NCBI RefSeq assembly: GCF_001190925.1
Contig: NZ_CP011072.1
Location: 2,294,001-2,358,000 of the forward strand
DNA length: 64,000 bases
DNA from: Azoarcus sp. CIB
Lineage (GTDB): Bacteria > Pseudomonadota > Gammaproteobacteria > Burkholderiales > Rhodocyclaceae
Direction: 5' to 3'
Shown: piece after piece, positions 52,696 through 59,994 of the stretch
Position numbering within the stretch: the first letter of the stretch is position 1
How the letters are laid out: the number at the start of each line of letters is the position of its first letter
Made by a program: the position numbers and the translations under genes
Notes under the pieces: generated by a model
Seen by the model: only the letters and a program-made list of their open reading frames with translations
The model's database searches: none
What the model was told of the DNA's origin: nothing

Positions 52696-53316
52696 ATGGA
52701 TAAACTCAAGCTTACCTACTTCGACTTTTCCGGCGGACGGGCGGAGCCTGCGCGGCTGGCCCTGCACATCGGCGGAATTCCGTTCGAGGACAATCGTTTC
52801 GCGCCTGGCGATTTTCCAGAGGTCCGCAAGACCGCTCCGCTGAACCAGGTGCCGACTCTTCACATCAATGACGTGCAGGTCACCCAAAGCGACGCGATTA
52901 CGCGCTATGCCGGGAAACTTGCCGGGCTTTACCCCGAAGACGACCTTCAGGCGCTGTACTGCGATGAAGTGATGGGCGCGCTGGAAGACATCAACACAAA
53001 GCTCGGGGCGACCTTTGGAATGACCGGGGATGTGCTGAAAAACGCCCGCGAGGCCCTGGTAGCGGATGCGTTGCCACGTTATTTGCGATGGCTGCAGAAC
53101 CAGCTCGAAGACCACGGTGGCGAGTTTTTTGCGGACCATCGCCTGACCGTGGCCGACCTCAAGGCCTTCGTCATCCTACGCTGGCTTGGCTCCGGCAAGC
53201 TGGACCACATTCCAGCCGACCTGATCGAGACCGTGACGCCAAAACTCGTGGCCTTCATGGACCGGATCGCCGGGATGCCTGCCATCGCGCATTATTACGA
53301 GACGCACGGGTCGTAG
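52696..53316 (+). CDS. Glutathione S-transferase (sigma-like)
   Basis: The 206-residue protein has the GST N-domain opening KLTYFDFSGGRAEPARL (catalytic Tyr8), the glutathione-binding NQVPTL and QSDAITRY loops, and an all-helical C-domain. The sigma/alpha-like pattern is uncommon in bacteria but known. AAGGA precedes the ATG. It is the last intact GC-rich gene before the island. Confidence 0.9.
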   Translation: MDKLKLTYFDFSGGRAEPARLALHIGGIPFEDNRFAPGDFPEVRKTAPLNQVPTLHINDVQVTQSDAITRYAGKLAGLYPEDDLQALYCDEVMGALEDINTKLGATFGMTGDVLKNAREALVADALPRYLRWLQNQLEDHGGEFFADHRLTVADLKAFVILRWLGSGKLDHIPADLIETVTPKLVAFMDRIAGMPAIAHYYETHGS

Positions 53317-53324
53317 TGATGTAA

Positions 53325-53475
53325 GCGACCGGGGAACGCATCTTGACGGAGCGCAAGCGCCATGAGGGGATTTCCTCGTACTTCCACCAGCACGGCTACA
53401 CCCGCATTCCGGACGGTCATCTGCCGCCTCCGGGCGAGTGCCGTGTCTGGTATCCGGACAGGCCGGCAGGTATGG
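53325..53475 (+). pseudogene. Remnant of a host gene at the left island edge
   Basis: One frame reads ERKRHEGISSYF, HGYTRIPDGHLPPPGECRVWYPDRPAG, a conserved segment I know from small proline-rich (lipo)proteins of Betaproteobacteria. The upstream part lacks a start, and after PDRPAG the sequence switches to AT-rich DNA and stops at 53493. The gene appears cut by the insertion that brought in the island. Confidence 0.5.
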
Positions 53476-53584
53476 CAGGTGATATATCTATTTAATTCAA
53501 TAATTTTCGCGCGATATATATTGCTGCGTTTGACTGTGCTGCGACTGAAATGATGATCAATTTAAAGCTTATTTGGGCCTTGCT

Positions 53585-54061
53585 ATGAATGGTGAGATAA
53601 ATTATGAAAACAACCCCTTGCATGGTGTTAGTTTAAAAAAGTTGTTAACTGAAATCGTTGATCACTATGGCTTTGAAATTTTATTTGCCTATTTAAACAT
53701 CAATTGTTTTAATAGCAATCCAAGTATAGAGTCCAGTGAAAAATTCCTTAGAAAGACGGATTGGGCGCGTGAGAAAGTTGAAGCGTTTTATTTATATCAA
53801 TTTATGAATTTACCTCGCGCGTCGGCCGATCAATTTGAATTACCCCCCAGAGATCGCGTTATTCCACAGGGTCAAACGCCGGGCAAGCCGGCTGAATTGA
53901 GTCTGGAAGACGCTGAGCGGTTACGCGAAAAGCGCGCCAAAAAAACGGCTATGCGAGGCCCGGATGCAGGCCGCCGTGCCAACTCGGATAAGAGTATGTC
54001 AAATTATTCAAGGGCCTCCATTTATCGTACTTCCGATCCAATGGAGAAGTATAAAAAATAA
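53585..54061 (+). CDS. VF530-family DNA-binding protein with extended tail
   Basis: The first 70 residues match the VF530/DUF2132 domain: [27 protein letters not shown]-like [27 protein letters not shown]. The remaining 80 residues are a basic, Arg/Lys/Ser-rich tail without recognised domain. Codon use is AT-rich, unlike the flanking host genes. ATG 53585 is favoured over TTG 53573. VF530 proteins are thought to bind DNA; the partner is unknown. Confidence 0.75.
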
Positions 54062-54130
54062 ATCTGCTTTCAGAATATTCAAAGGCAAGGCGTCGAAGGT
54101 TTTTTAGAATTATTTTGTACCATTCAAAAT

Positions 54131-54456
54131 GGATCATGGGGTCGCTCCAAATACGCACCGACCTACCACAAGAAGATCGGAGGCATCAGCGACTGCGCGA
54201 TGCAGGCGCTGCTCGCGCAAGACTGGCCCGGCAACGTGCGCGAACTGGAAAACCTCATCGAACGCGGCGTGCTGCTCGCGCAACCGGGGGGTCAGATTGA
54301 ACTGCAGCATTTGTTCGCGGCCGGTCCCCCGACCCGCAGAACGACGTCGAGATCGGACGGGAGAACGGCAATCTGACCCACACGGCGCGCCTTCTCGGCA
54401 TCATGCGACGCCAGCTTACGTATCGGTTGAAGCAGGACGCGAACGCCACCGAATAG
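54131..54456 (+). pseudogene. Broken sigma-54-dependent activator (C-terminal part)
   Basis: A GC-rich patch inside AT-rich DNA reads the end of an NtrC-type AAA+ domain (LLAQDWPGNVRELENLIERGVLLA), then, in another frame, a Fis-type helix-turn-helix (GNLTHTARLLGIMRRQLTYRLKQ) with a stop at 54454. The frame shifts between about 54300 and 54366 and the N-terminal domains are missing. It is a dead fragment. Confidence 0.75.
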
Positions 54457-54834
54457 GCCATTCTCGCAGACCGTGGGCTGCCGTTCCTTTGGCGGTCGGC
54501 AGTTCGGCCGTAGCCGTCATTGGCGAAAGGAGATTCTAGTGGCTGGAATCGCGCGCTTACCGGTCGGCGGCCACAAACCCCGGCCCCAAAGCATTTTCTT
54601 AGATACACGAATCGTCCCTTTTGACTAACGCCATCGTAAGGAGTAAAGGCCCCTAAGCAGCGCAGAGGAAGAGCTTCGTCATGTGAAAGCTTCGTCGGCC
54701 GCTTACTAGCAATCGATATTGAATGACGGCACAATTTACATGCTATGCATGCAAGACTGAAGCTTACCTAAGTTGGTTTTACACTTGCACACCTTGTTCT
54801 TCCAGCGAAAGATAATCTTTGGACAGACCGACGC
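54457..54834. other. Intergenic, no gene seen
   Basis: This stretch has no open frame with family similarity. It includes the probable promoter region of the pentapeptide gene (AT-rich, 54770-54820), where I could not fix a -35/-10 pair. Confidence 0.5.
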
Positions 54835-56059
54835 ATGAGAAAAGAGCATCAAGATAAACTGCTTTACGGCGTAAGACATTGGAACCAGTGGCGCAATGGC
54901 CATCATTGGTTTACCTCCATCGATCTGTCGCAAGTAATCGTCCGAACTGATATTCCCGGCATCGACTTGAGAGACGCCAATTTGGCTGGCGCCAATTTTC
55001 GCGGCATTTCTCTAAATAACGCCGATCTCAGGGACGCATGCCTGGAAGGCGCAAACTTTGAGGGGGCGTGTCTTGTCGGTTGTGATCTAAGGGGGGCCTT
55101 ATTAGATGGTGCAAATTTCAAAAAAGCAGACTTGCAAGGAGCTCGGCTCGGCCTTCCGGATTTATTGGATACAACACTAAAACGTGCAGACCGCTATTCG
55201 TCGCCTCGAACCCAAAATACCTGCCTAAGAAAAGCCAACTTTGCGGGCGCAAACCTGCAAGCTATAACAGCAGAGAAAATTCTTGCAGAGATGAGTAATT
55301 TTGCAGGAGCTGAATTTCAGCAACGCCGATTTAACATCGGCGAATTTTCGCGGCGCAAACCTAAATGGAGCGAATTGCGTTGAGAGCAACCTTCAAGGGG
55401 CTATATTGGATCATGCAACGCTGGTCAAGACGGATTTGTCACGTGCCAATATTTCTAATTGCTCAGTATATGGAATCTCGGCTTGGGATATCGTAGTTGT
55501 GGAGGCTAATCAAGACAACCTCGCCATTACGCCTCGCGGGAGCGATCCAATAGTAACTGACAATATTGAGCTTGCACAATTCATGTACCTATTGCTCAAC
55601 AACAAGAAGGTACGTGGCGTCATTGACACCATTAGCACGAAGCTAGTATTGATATTGGGAAGGTTCACGGAAGAGCGTATGTCCATTCTTAATGAATTGC
55701 GGACATATATTAGATCGACCGGGTGCATACCGGTGTTGTGCGATTTTGAGAAGCCCGGCAACCGCGATCTGACTGAAACCATCGTAACGCTAGCTCATCT
55801 TTCTAGAGCTGTAATCGCAGACCTAACAGAAGCGAGAGCCGTGGCTCACGAGCTTTCCGCAACGATTCCTAATTTGCCATCTGTCCGATTCCAGCCGATC
55901 TGTGCGTCTTCTGACATCGAGTACGCAATGTTCGAGCACTTTCGAAAATATCAGTGGGTATTACCTACCCTCTGCTACGATTCGTTGTCACAATTAAAAG
56001 CACAACTCGCGGAATCCGGTCTGTTCGTTCAATTCAATGCGAAAAGCGTCACGTCATAG
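54835..56059 (+). pseudogene. Pentapeptide-repeat protein with TIR-like C-terminal domain, frameshifted
   Basis: Two overlapping frames make one protein of about 407 residues. The first holds about 17 pentapeptide repeats of the A(N/D)LxX type; the second continues them (LNFSNADLTSANFRGANLNG) and adds a Rossmann-type domain, KLVLILGRFTEERMSILNEL, FEKPGNRDLTETI, VIADLTEARAVAHEL. The join is at 55309-55313: deleting the G at 55312 restores one frame (GAN-FSNAD). That C-domain resembles TIR or deoxyribosyltransferase folds. As written the gene is disrupted; a sequencing error or programmed shift is possible. Confidence 0.75.
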
Positions 56060-56208
56060 ACAGCATGAGACGAGTTTTTACGCTGATCGGTCCCGAGATT
56101 TATAAGAAGCGGCAGGTTAATGTTGCGAGTTCGTAGAGGAATTGATCACTACCTGCTCTCGGTAGCTGCATGCCTCGGGTCGGAATCGAATCAATCAGGC
56201 CATTAACC

Positions 56209-57300
56209 CTACCCTGGCGGCGCCGTTACTAAGCCTTGGCCGATGTCTGTTTCGTTACTGTTGTCGGCGAACACGTCCTTACGTGCATGTGCCAGCAATC
56301 TCGCCGTCACATTCTTGGCGTTTGGTCTCGCGCCGGAGCGACGCAGGAATTCCCACCAGAGTGCTGCGACGCCCGCGACATGCGGACAGGCCATGCTGGT
56401 CCCACTAATGGTATGCAGTCCGCCGCCCAGCCATGCCGACGTGATGTCCACGCCCGGACCGGCGATGTTTGCGAGGCTATTGGAAAAATCCGCTACAGCG
56501 TACCGCTCGGCGGCGCGACCTACAGCTGCCACGGAGATTACATCATCGGCCGCAGCAGGCAGAGAAGCAGCAATCCGGTATTCGCGGTTCACTGAGCGCC
56601 GACTCTCATTGCCGGCGGCAGCGACAATCAGCGGGGAGATGCCAAATGCAGCCTGCGCTTTAACAACGCCCATGATCGCATCGAACATGCGTAGGTTCCC
56701 GCGGTATGCCTCCAGCGCATTCGACGTAGCGAGGTCAATCGGCCAGCCATCCCGAGTCAATCCAGCCACCATTCCGGGAAAATCGAAGCCCAGTGACATG
56801 GAGATGATGTCAGCGCGCTCCTGCATTGCCCAAGTTAGTGCGTTGAAAATCATATCGGACTGACCTGATCCATCGTCTCCGAGAACCTTGCCAATCAGTG
56901 CTCGATCCACACCGCGAGCAACGCCGATGCGCTTCCCCACGTCCCGTCCAAAAATGGTCCCAGCACAATGCGTCCCATGGCCTTGTCGGTCTCCATCGCC
57001 ATGACCGCTGAAATCCTTTTCGACCAAGGTGACACCGTTGAATGCGGGATGAGCGCGATCAATACCGGTATCTAGTACGGCTACCGTTACCCCTGCGCCC
57101 GAGCACCGGCTTTGGTCAGCTCTGACAGCTTCGACGCCCCAGTTCGCGTCCGAATGCCCCGGGATGGGGGCCTCGCAAGATAGGGGGGCAATCAAGCGAA
57201 TCGGCATCACGGGCGCAACGAGTTCCACCCGGGGATCGGCGAGCAATTCGGCGATGGCTTGATCCGGGATCCTTTCGGTGGATAAGGCGGGTATCGCCAT
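56209..57300 (-). CDS. S8 subtilisin-like protease of the TIR-caspase operon
   Basis: From ATG 57300 the 363-residue protein has the complete triad: Asp77 (AVLDTGID), His108 (GHGTHCAG) and Ser302 (GTSMACPHVAG), plus the oxyanion Asn231 (AAAGNES). No signal peptide is seen, so it is probably cytoplasmic. Conserved-looking sequence extends upstream to ATC at 57379-57381, which has GGAG six bases before it. An ATC start (27 extra residues) or a mutated ATG is likely. The spacing of 39 bases from the caspase stop to that ATC supports one operon. Confidence 0.88.
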   Translation of the reverse strand: MAIPALSTERIPDQAIAELLADPRVELVAPVMPIRLIAPLSCEAPIPGHSDANWGVEAVRADQSRCSGAGVTVAVLDTGIDRAHPAFNGVTLVEKDFSGHGDGDRQGHGTHCAGTIFGRDVGKRIGVARGVDRALIGKVLGDDGSGQSDMIFNALTWAMQERADIISMSLGFDFPGMVAGLTRDGWPIDLATSNALEAYRGNLRMFDAIMGVVKAQAAFGISPLIVAAAGNESRRSVNREYRIAASLPAAADDVISVAAVGRAAERYAVADFSNSLANIAGPGVDITSAWLGGGLHTISGTSMACPHVAGVAALWWEFLRRSGARPNAKNVTARLLAHARKDVFADNSNETDIGQGLVTAPPG

Positions 57301-57420
57301 GTGCGCGGCAACTAATGTGTCCGAGCCACGGCCTCGCGTTTGGTGCGCCGAGTTTCGTTGAAGGATGATGTAGGGTTTGATGGCCGACTCCTAAGTAGTG
57401 AATTCGTAGGCAGTACGCTG

Positions 57421-58413
57421 TCAGAGGCGCTTCAGTTCCGCAAGCTTGCGGTAATGTGCACCAAGCGCGGTGAGCCTGCAGCCTTTTGAATGGATCGCCG
57501 CGTAGTACATGTGCTCGGAGTCCACCGGCACCACCAGACCGTGTCTGTTGCAATTTTGAAGTTCTTTAAAGATTCGAACGTTACTTTCATTGACTGGAAC
57601 AGTCTTGAACTCGTCTGGCACATTTTCGCGGTCCGGTTCGAACGACGGGTCAAGTGGAAATATATGCGCTTGGTCGGGAAAGTACGACGGAAGTCGGCGA
57701 AGTACATCGAATGGAATCTTGGGTTCGACTTGGCGAAGCGTCACAAAACTCTGAACGTTTGCCTTGTAAATCGGGCGCTGTTCCCAAGCGCCGAGCGTCT
57801 GGTCGACATGAGAATAGAGTGAGGCCGGTGTGATATTGCCGCGTATGTCCGCGCAGCCACCTTGAAGTCCGTCGAGCAGAATGTCGGTAAAGAGTCCATG
57901 GCGCTGGCCGTCTTCAGCCGCCCCGTCGCGGTGACTTGCAGTTAGGATGGTGACGCCCACGCCAATTGCCGACGGGCTGCCGGCAGGCAATCCTGCAACT
58001 TCTCCTGCATAGCCGGAATGACAGCAATCTAGGATGACGATACTCGACCGAATCTTTGGGTGCGCACTATTTGCGAGTCCAAGGATTTCAGACAGGGACA
58101 TCCCCCAAGCACCACGACGACCATCGCTACCGACGATGTAACCAGCATCCGTCTCGGGATTTAGAATCCCGTGTCCGGCGAAATAAAGTAGCACGGTCTC
58201 GGCCTCGCCACCTCTGAACAGTTCGGAAACCGCTTGTTGAACAGCCGCATTTCCGACGTCGTCATCATTGCTGGTTAGCGTCCGAACGGAGAAGTTCGGT
58301 GAACCGTCCCCATTAGTTTGAAGCAGCTGTGAAACAGCAATGGCATCGTTAACGCATCCGCGCAAAGGACTGTTTGAATAGTCATCGATCCCGATGACGA
58401 GCGCTCGCTTCAT
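57421..58413 (-). CDS. Caspase-like protease (C14 family)
   Basis: The 330-residue protein opens RALVIGIDDYSNSPLRGCVNDA, typical of prokaryotic caspases. The catalytic dyad is His81 (YFAGHG) and Cys131 (ILDCCHSG). After about residue 230 comes a C-terminal domain ending in VPVDSEHMYYAAIHSKGCRLTALGAHYRKLAEL, which I cannot assign and which may be the activation or signal-binding part. ATG 58413 overlaps the TIR gene stop by one base (TGATG). The upstream alternative start (58458) lies inside the TIR gene. Confidence 0.92.
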   Translation of the reverse strand: MKRALVIGIDDYSNSPLRGCVNDAIAVSQLLQTNGDGSPNFSVRTLTSNDDDVGNAAVQQAVSELFRGGEAETVLLYFAGHGILNPETDAGYIVGSDGRRGAWGMSLSEILGLANSAHPKIRSSIVILDCCHSGYAGEVAGLPAGSPSAIGVGVTILTASHRDGAAEDGQRHGLFTDILLDGLQGGCADIRGNITPASLYSHVDQTLGAWEQRPIYKANVQSFVTLRQVEPKIPFDVLRRLPSYFPDQAHIFPLDPSFEPDRENVPDEFKTVPVNESNVRIFKELQNCNRHGLVVPVDSEHMYYAAIHSKGCRLTALGAHYRKLAELKRL

Positions 58414-58802
58414 CAGCGACCTCCACCGACTAGATTCTTGAGATTTTCCCAAGTCCACTTATACAGCTTGTCGGCGTCCTTGGCTGCCCTAGGCTTCTTG
58501 CACGTCTTTTCTGCATAGCCCTTGAGCAGAAAGTACGAGACGCCTTCTTCTTGCGCGATCTTAAGCTCTGCGCTTACGCCAGTAGCCGTGTCAGTGTGCT
58601 CTCCGCAGATGACACAGACAACGTCAACAGCCTTGATACGCGTCCGGGCCTTGGCTTTCCAGTTGTCGTCGATGTGTTCCTTGATCGACCAATCGGCGAG
58701 TTCGAAGGGGCTGCCTTCATTCTTTGCTTGACCGACAAGGAACGTCTTGAGCGTTTCGTCGTAATCGTAGTCGAAACTGATAAAAACCCGTATCTTGGCC
58801 AT
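58413..58802 (-). CDS. TIR-like protein (ThsB/MTH538 type)
   Basis: The 129-residue stand-alone domain matches the TIR-like MTH538/DUF1863 family that includes Thoeris ThsB. Landmarks are KIRVFISFDYDYDE, LVGQAKNEGSPFELADWSIKE, VVCVICGEHT and the helix SAELKIAQ, whose Glu79 is the expected catalytic glutamate. Such proteins make NAD-derived cyclic signals that switch on a partner effector. It is the first gene of the operon with the caspase and S8 protease. AAGGA precedes the ATG by about nine bases. Confidence 0.9.
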   Translation of the reverse strand: MAKIRVFISFDYDYDETLKTFLVGQAKNEGSPFELADWSIKEHIDDNWKAKARTRIKAVDVVCVICGEHTDTATGVSAELKIAQEEGVSYFLLKGYAEKTCKKPRAAKDADKLYKWTWENLKNLVGGGR

Positions 58803-59442
58803 TAAGCGTTCCTTTTTCGATGATTTAAGACCTGCTTATTTTTATTTGATCAAGATATCGGATCGATATCTTCAGCGGTCATAAGCGTCGTGGTAAGCCC
58901 ACGAATGGCTAATAAATAGGTTATAGGAGTTCGCCACGGCGCCACGCAGAAATTTCCGTTTTTCGTTCGCGCCTGCGGAATTTCGTGAAATCGGAATTTA
59001 TCCGATTAGCGCGCTATATGCCGTTGGCGATGTATGTTGCAAGAAATGAAATGTTACCGCAAGAGGACGGCGGTGGAAATCACAACATCGCATTTGGCTA
59101 ACCCTTTTAGACCATGAGCGATTAACTAACGGGTAGCGGGTCCGCCGCTTGTCGTAGTGGTTCGCTATACGCGAGGCCTGCGGCCCCTATCGGTAGGGAC
59201 CGGATATAGGGAGAACTGCGAAGCAATATTCAAGGCCGGCTTGCGGCCTCCAACTGCTGACGCATACATTGCGGTCGTAGTTGGCACAGCTTTGCCGACG
59301 GCCGGTCAGGCCGAGGACTTGCCGGTCGTCAGCCCAACGGTGCTACATGATTGCCCGGGGGTGCGAGCGACGGCACAATGCCGTCGGTATTATCCGACCA
59401 TCCTTTATTTCCGCACTCCCTGTTGAGCCCCTGAAGGATCCG
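58803..59442. other. Right part of island, no gene supported
   Basis: About 640 bases with the TIR promoter at the left. Three AAATTTCCG/CGGAATTT copies cluster at 58950-58999. The only open frame (59157-59426) has no family signal and odd composition, so I do not call it. Confidence 0.5.
58848..58872 (-). promoter_or_regulatory. Palindromic operator and -35 region of the TIR operon
   Basis: AAGATATCG-GAT-CGATATCTT (58852-58872) is a perfect 9-base inverted repeat. It abuts TTGATC (58848-58853 on the minus strand), a possible -35 with a weak TCTTAA -10 17 bases on. A repressor bound here would block the operon. Confidence 0.45.
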
Positions 59443-59994
59443 ATGCAGTTGGTACACTCTCGGCGATTCATTTCCGCCTTCCTTGCGGCCTGCTGCGGCC
59501 TGTTGGCCGCGGCGGCGGGCTTCGCTCTCGTCCGCGCCGGAGGTTCATTGCCGGCGCCGGTGAGCGGCTTCGCCTGGCTGATGGTGATACTGATGGTCGT
59601 GGGACTGCTGATCGGGCTGCGAGATACCTGGCGACCGCCGCTCATGTATCGCGCCGACGAGCGCGGCGTAACGATCTTCTACCAGGCCGACCGGCGCCGT
59701 TTCGCGGGACCGGGCGTTTTCCTGCCGTGGGACTCGGTGACGAAACTGACCTTGGAAAAGCGTATTTGCAGGGGCCACACCGCAAGGAAAGTGAATATCT
59801 GGGTGGTGGTCTGCGCCCTGGACCGCGAGGCGCCGTTCCCGGTCGCGCAGCATAGTTCGGCATGTGAAGACGAGGACCATCTGGTGTGCCTCGATGCCGT
59901 GTCGGGGACTCCCTCCGGTGAAGAGATGCTCGCGCGACTGCGAAATTTGTGGGCGCGCGGCAAGCGCCGAAGAAGGGGCGCGAAGTCTCCATGA
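59443..59994 (+). CDS. Small membrane protein with PH-like cytoplasmic domain
   Basis: The 183-residue protein has two membrane helices (about 10-30 and 42-60) and then a soluble segment with RADERGVTIFYQAD and FLPWDSVTKLTLEKR, which looks like a bacterial PH-type fold. The tail is very basic. AAGGA precedes ATG 59443. No function is known. It overlaps the next gene by four bases. Confidence 0.65.
   Translation: MQLVHSRRFISAFLAACCGLLAAAAGFALVRAGGSLPAPVSGFAWLMVILMVVGLLIGLRDTWRPPLMYRADERGVTIFYQADRRRFAGPGVFLPWDSVTKLTLEKRICRGHTARKVNIWVVVCALDREAPFPVAQHSSACEDEDHLVCLDAVSGTPSGEEMLARLRNLWARGKRRRRGAKSP

Follow-up and report, generated by a model that had tools for sequence, protein, structure and literature searches.

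The 64 000-nucleotide stretch of the Azoarcus sp. CIB genome analyzed here (hereinafter, the window) contains three consecutive open frames on the minus strand that encode, in this order, a ThsB-type TIR protein, a caspase-like protease and a subtilisin-like protease of the S8 family. The TIR gene (58413..58802, 129 amino acids) and the caspase gene (57421..58413, 330 amino acids) overlap by one base, within TGATG, and 39 bp separate the caspase stop codon from the putative ATC start of the S8 gene (56209..57381, 390 codons). Each of the three genes is preceded by a Shine-Dalgarno-like sequence (AAAGGA before the ATG of the TIR gene). The gene identities proposed in the original prediction, along with the one-base overlap, are borne out by the open frames and by the Pfam matches, all above the respective cut-offs: ThsB_TIR for the TIR protein (PF08937, 28.8 bits with a cut-off of 21.2), Peptidase_C14 for the caspase (PF00656, 69 bits with a cut-off of 21.4) and Peptidase_S8 for the third protein (PF00082, 126.4 bits with a cut-off of 21.8). 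Rfam detected no RNA element at the locus, and a simple scan detected no sigma-70 promoter.

The GC content around the operon, between 53 and 59.5 kb (53000-59500), is ∼0.47-0.61, compared with 0.64-0.70 on both flanks; this low-GC stretch, which also carries a gene for a VF530-type DNA-binding protein (53573-54061), resembles an acquired island. On the plus strand (54835-56059), pentapeptide repeats occur in each of two overlapping frames, which look like a single gene broken by a frameshift and converging on the S8 gene; Pfam has no match for the C-terminal part of this gene. The same genome also carries, at C1:1151352-1152116 (locus L001), another gene with a caspase domain (93.8 bits), beside a hydrolase-like frame.

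The active sites of all three proteins are intact, as originally noted. In the TIR protein, a predicted NAD-consuming signal maker, Glu79 is kept in the eight true TIR rows of the alignment, a count made without the non-TIR row L006:4374-4778; a PDB sequence search with this protein produced no match. In the caspase, the His81/Cys131 dyad is invariant across 58 aligned sequences, and so are Asp23 and Asp129, a predicted acidic S1 pocket, which we take to be the counterpart of the one in metacaspases. Metacaspases cut after Arg or Lys, and the paracaspase MALT1 cuts after Arg. The AlphaFold2 model of the caspase (pLDDT 91.5) consists of the peptidase domain and a separate, confidently folded C-terminal domain (approximately residues 227-330; 57424..57735, minus strand) that, judging from the model and from its conserved positions, which include E259, P296, M302 and G318 in the 58 sequences, is a candidate ligand sensor. 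In a Foldseek search with this model, ranks 1-19 are all MALT1; in the PDB sequence search, the sole match is a yeast metacaspase.

The S8 protein contains all motifs of the Asp/His/Ser triad and adopts the subtilase fold in its AlphaFold2 model (pLDDT 91.2). The original prediction placed this gene close behind the caspase gene, which is indeed the case, with an ATG start at 57300 (57300-56209, minus strand); the start, however, appears to lie further upstream. The frame extends 27 codons beyond this ATG, to the ATC at 57381, six bases past AGGAG (57388..57392), a putative ribosome binding site, and contains no ATG, GTG or TTG before 57300. The homologue from Sphingomonas aligns from its first residue, 27 codons upstream of the ATG in the window, and the first residues of another homologue, from the genome G894, likewise match the window frame upstream of the ATG. 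The original prediction has all three proteins without signal peptides; with the extension, the S8 model starts with a beta strand (residues 2-8), as does the caspase model, followed by a low-confidence loop (14-26), a beta-alpha-beta-beta unit (32-63) and a weak linker (71-80). The top 17 ranks of the Foldseek search are pro-form or unprocessed subtilisins; Pfam reports no propeptide family in this protein. Judging by the model, the S8 protein is probably a pro-subtilisin zymogen with its own propeptide, predicted to span approximately residues 1-66 (57184..57381, minus strand).

According to the passages on type IV Thoeris in two recent articles (PMC12847820, PMC13373217), both of which credit this system to Rousset et al. 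2025 (Science), its operon likewise consists of a TIR gene followed by a gene for a caspase-like protease, which is switched on by N7-cADPR and which, on its own, reportedly carries out broad protein degradation. As originally proposed, the pair in the window fits type IV Thoeris by gene content and by the intact TIR Glu and caspase His/Cys, the published system being compared by description only. Because a caspase-like protease switched by a TIR signal is already part of type IV Thoeris as described in these passages, the possible new Thoeris-type system of the original prediction is better regarded as a known system with an added gene, that for the S8 pro-subtilisin. As for the third gene, for which the original prediction knew of no described system, no account of an S8 protease in conjunction with a TIR-caspase pair or with Thoeris was found among the papers listed in searches of the literature outside of subscription papers.

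TIR-caspase pairs are widespread, and the gene that follows them differs between loci. Among the best 80 of 486 caspase relatives in the genome collection, which come from many phyla including archaea, a TIR gene recognizable by tblastn is located directly upstream of the caspase gene in 68 and only downstream in 6, with none detected by tblastn in the remaining 6 of these 80 loci; one of these 6 begins close to the end of a contig. The pair is also found on plasmids and in viral contigs; of the plasmid matches, 20 of 98 records were listed for the caspase, 20 of 52 for the TIR protein and 30 of 213 for the S8 protein, with 6 caspase, 2 TIR and 6 S8 loci analyzed and the Sphingomonas S8 gene reached via its caspase match. 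Genes in the loci of relatives were called by simple ORF scripts, and the third gene was defined as the nearest ORF of 85 or more amino acids within 160 bp behind the caspase gene, yielding 67 loci besides the window, 66 of which (all except L011) were scanned against Pfam. In this set of 66, the third gene matches ThsB_TIR in 20 cases and TIR_2 in 15 (overlapping sets), RyR in 5 (with one match at 17.8 bits, under the Pfam cut-off of 27.4) and Peptidase_S8 in 2, the remainder being assorted single families or proteins without a match; a metallophosphatase occupies this slot in one plasmid locus. When the 3 kb behind each caspase gene were scanned for a pair of S8 motifs in a single frame, none of the best 80 of 486 loci had one; 6 of these loci have fewer than 700 bases left there. 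This result rules out the S8 gene as an invariable third component of type IV Thoeris and implies that the system can generally do without it.

Two kinds of neighbors recur in these loci. A second TIR gene lies behind the caspase gene in 10 of the best 80 of 486 genome loci (L018, L020, L021, L024, L025, L035, L059, L064, L070 and L090, by tblastn). The weak RyR matches (5 of the 66 third genes) are small proteins with an EHxRW motif that are encoded behind the caspase in L077, L080, L082, L084 and L233, and upstream, on the other strand, in L109. Phage RyR proteins are reported to degrade ADPR-type signals, so that the EHxRW proteins may be modulators of the system.

The search for the three-gene arrangement across genomes, as suggested in the original prediction, yielded two further TIR-caspase-S8 operons, one on a 385-kb plasmid of Sphingomonas parapaucimobilis and the other in G894, a gammaproteobacterial genome from the same class as the window but from another order, so that, with the window, there are three such operons, in hosts of different orders; no match to the DNA of the three genes was found in E. 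coli genomes. The caspase and S8 genes are separated by 16 bp in Sphingomonas, where a CHAT-like gene (26.8 bits with a cut-off of 24) and then a second TIR gene follow, and by 8 bp in G894, where a second TIR gene is located upstream. The identity to the window proteins in these two operons is 67-72% for the TIR protein, 67-68% for the caspase and 59-61% for the S8 protease. In the caspase tree (108 sequences), the three that are linked to S8 form a single clade (100/92) nested within a clade of 21 members, the others of which are accompanied by other third genes or none; this topology argues for a single origin of the caspase lineage with the S8 gene, followed by spread between orders. The window's caspase family is represented in only 3 of 297 genomes of the window's taxonomic family, including its own, and yet the three-gene order recurs in two distant bacteria, which is beyond chance expectation. 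Thus, the arrangement is rare (none of the best 80 of 486 loci), but the two further operons and the caspase clade, in sequence comparison, support a linkage of the S8 gene to the TIR-caspase pair that goes beyond a chance neighborhood, the outcome that would have spoken against the original prediction.

In separate genome searches with cut-offs of 1e-50 to 1e-60, the S8 family was detected in 3 of 399, 3 of 398 (both counts including the own genome), 15 of 390, 1 of 197, 4 of 150 and 2 of 147 genomes; at 1e-30, it was detected in none of 14 genomes with close caspases and in none of 1 genome in another search, the cut-offs in the whole series of searches thus varying from 1e-30 to 1e-60. Besides the window's own, 24 different genomes encode members of the family, and the gene in front of the S8 gene is a caspase in 1 (G894), a pfkB-like gene in 13 and some other gene in 8, with the locus cut off in 2. 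The 13 pfkB-side genes share one housekeeping chromosomal site. Because only 1 of the 24 genes is located behind a caspase and 13 are found at this shared site, the S8 family is not a defense family as such. The 13 loci (L110, L125-L130, L132-L136 and L138) are of one alphaproteobacterial-type order, and the catalytic Asp and Ser motifs are gone from the S8 copy in L110. No close S8 relative emerged in phages: those found are all below 60% identity, and one of the 31 records spans 80% of the query. In the 80 S8 loci from viral contigs, the identity is at most 38%.

Other S8 relatives are associated with different proteases. On plasmids of A. tumefaciens and S. meliloti, they are encoded directly behind CHAT proteases (96 and 61.9 bits, respectively), and four near-identical records of A. 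tumefaciens contain a CHAT-S8-second TIR operon. In one of the loci, on an A. tumefaciens Ti plasmid (L011, 3380-12378), this operon is located ∼3 kb from an inverted TIR-caspase operon and includes a remnant of a SLOG gene, 25 residues long, between the S8 and TIR genes. On a Bradyrhizobium plasmid (L096, 7213-9770; the locus on which the Trypsin_2 profile was run) and in the genome G1151 (L137), the S8 gene is directly followed by a trypsin-like gene, in what may be one more pairing of two proteases.

The S8 tree does not mirror the caspase tree. In the best tree, the three caspase-linked S8 proteases do not form a clade; they come together in 34% of the bootstraps, and the nearest relative of the window protein is the unlinked L259; the AU test does not reject the clade (p 0.113). 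Co-inheritance of the S8 protease and the caspase, sought as matching trees, is accordingly not supported, and the pattern could reflect either repeated recruitment or loss of signal.

Taken together, these observations suggest, with about an even chance of being correct, that the operon is a rare variant of type IV Thoeris in which a signal-gated caspase frees the pro-S8 protease in a two-step proteolytic cascade. Upon infection, the TIR protein would convert NAD into a signal, which is N7-cADPR in the published system, and this signal would switch on the caspase. The active caspase is predicted, from its acidic specificity pocket, to cut after Arg or Lys. The S8 protease would be made as an inactive pro-subtilisin, with the propeptide, as modeled, serving as a clamp, and the caspase might cut the exposed loop or linker of the propeptide or simply destroy this inhibitory domain. 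The freed subtilisin would then add further broad proteolysis, and the infected cell would be stopped.

A precedent for such activation comes from the Canu caspase-nuclease systems, in which, according to passages in PMC12799240, a bacterial caspase is likewise co-encoded with a proenzyme-like partner and activates it; that partner is a pro-nuclease, accompanied by Ig-like domains, whereas the operon in the window combines a subtilisin as the partner with a TIR protein as the gate. Conflict systems also pair a caspase gene with a second, constant gene for a hydrolase, for example, the alpha/beta-hydrolase of VMAP systems, but have other core genes (MoxR-vWA, EACC1), and the TIR-caspase-S8 triad is not among the systems described in the relevant part of PMC7159879. 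S8 proteases also appear in a defense setting in IetAS-type systems, and the S8 models of this type in PADLOC and NCBIfam weakly match the window protein, which is, however, far under the NCBIfam cut-off (20.1 bits versus 900). In IetAS, the partner of the S8 protease is an ATPase.

Support for the cascade comes from the three operons and the caspase clade, the S8 genes behind CHAT proteases, the CHAT-like gene that follows S8 in Sphingomonas, the proximity of the A. tumefaciens CHAT-S8-TIR operon to a TIR-caspase pair, the pro-subtilisin model, the invariant Asp23 and Asp129, the match to MALT1 and the Canu precedent. It is weakened by the absence of S8 genes from the best 80 of 486 loci, the single caspase-fronted gene among 24, the S8 tree, and the lack of a special basic site. 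Indeed, the two-step cascade proposed originally fits the predicted pro-subtilisin, but a cleavage site peculiar to caspase-linked proteases does not emerge: an alignment of 24 rows, two of them caspase-linked and the Sphingomonas row not among them, reveals no basic-residue signature, and the basic residues of the propeptide loop and the linker occur family-wide. Furthermore, subtilisins commonly process themselves, so that an activator of the S8 protease may be needless, and the broad proteolysis ascribed to the published caspase by itself weakens the case for a second protease.

Alternatively, the S8 protease could be an independent second effector or accessory of the operon, self-activated or held by another cue, that acts in parallel to the caspase rather than below it. 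The recurrence of the operon and the caspase clade apply equally to this scenario, self-processing is general among pro-subtilisins, and relatives without any caspase show that the enzyme can work without one. Conversely, a self-activating cytoplasmic subtilisin would damage the cell unless restrained, and the repeated occurrence of S8 genes downstream of a caspase or CHAT gene points to a connection with these proteases, which makes the parallel role rather unlikely. We assign a still lower probability to the possibility that the S8 gene is a passenger of a gene-exchange island that came to lie beside the pair by chance gene gain, as could be surmised from the rarity of the association (none of the best 80 of 486 loci), the relatives unlinked to caspases, the failure of the three caspase-linked proteases to group in the S8 tree, and the low-GC stretch around the locus, because the same order and strand are maintained in three bacteria with gaps of 39, 16 and 8 bp, all three caspases belong to one clade, and further S8 genes lie behind CHAT genes. 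Slightly less probable again is a role of the S8 protease as an off-switch or safety device, clearing away caspase or TIR protein that is spent or wrongly active: the operon position is all that speaks for it, with the 3′ location perhaps fitting later or lower expression, and most of the type IV Thoeris-like loci (best 80 of 486) lack an S8 gene, so that there is no general need for such a brake. Finally, it is highly improbable that the S8 protease of the window is poorly made or decaying through loss of its ATG start, leaving a plain two-gene type IV Thoeris, because, even if the homologous start position is ATC rather than ATG, GTG or TTG and a start at the first ATG would remove the first strand of the propeptide, the 390-codon frame is open and encodes the complete triad, and both the Shine-Dalgarno sequence and the 27 codons upstream have been preserved, with resemblance to the homologues.

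Under the two-step cascade, a broader scheme can be entertained, albeit tentatively and with somewhat less than even probability. The Thoeris caspase would act as the initiator and the S8 zymogen as the executioner, in a nucleotide-gated cascade parallel to that of initiator and executioner caspases; several caspase-clan operons, both type IV Thoeris and CHAT, would have recruited the same pro-subtilisin, and the slot behind the TIR-caspase pair would generally accommodate swappable partners. Caspase proteolysis alone reportedly enables type IV Thoeris to stop phage infection, and a pro-subtilisin would add an amplification step. The three-gene operon would make bacterial protease cascades directly testable, and the variable slot behind the TIR-caspase pair, filled by a second TIR, an RyR-like protein, a metallophosphatase or an S8 protease, is a place to seek modulators of the system.
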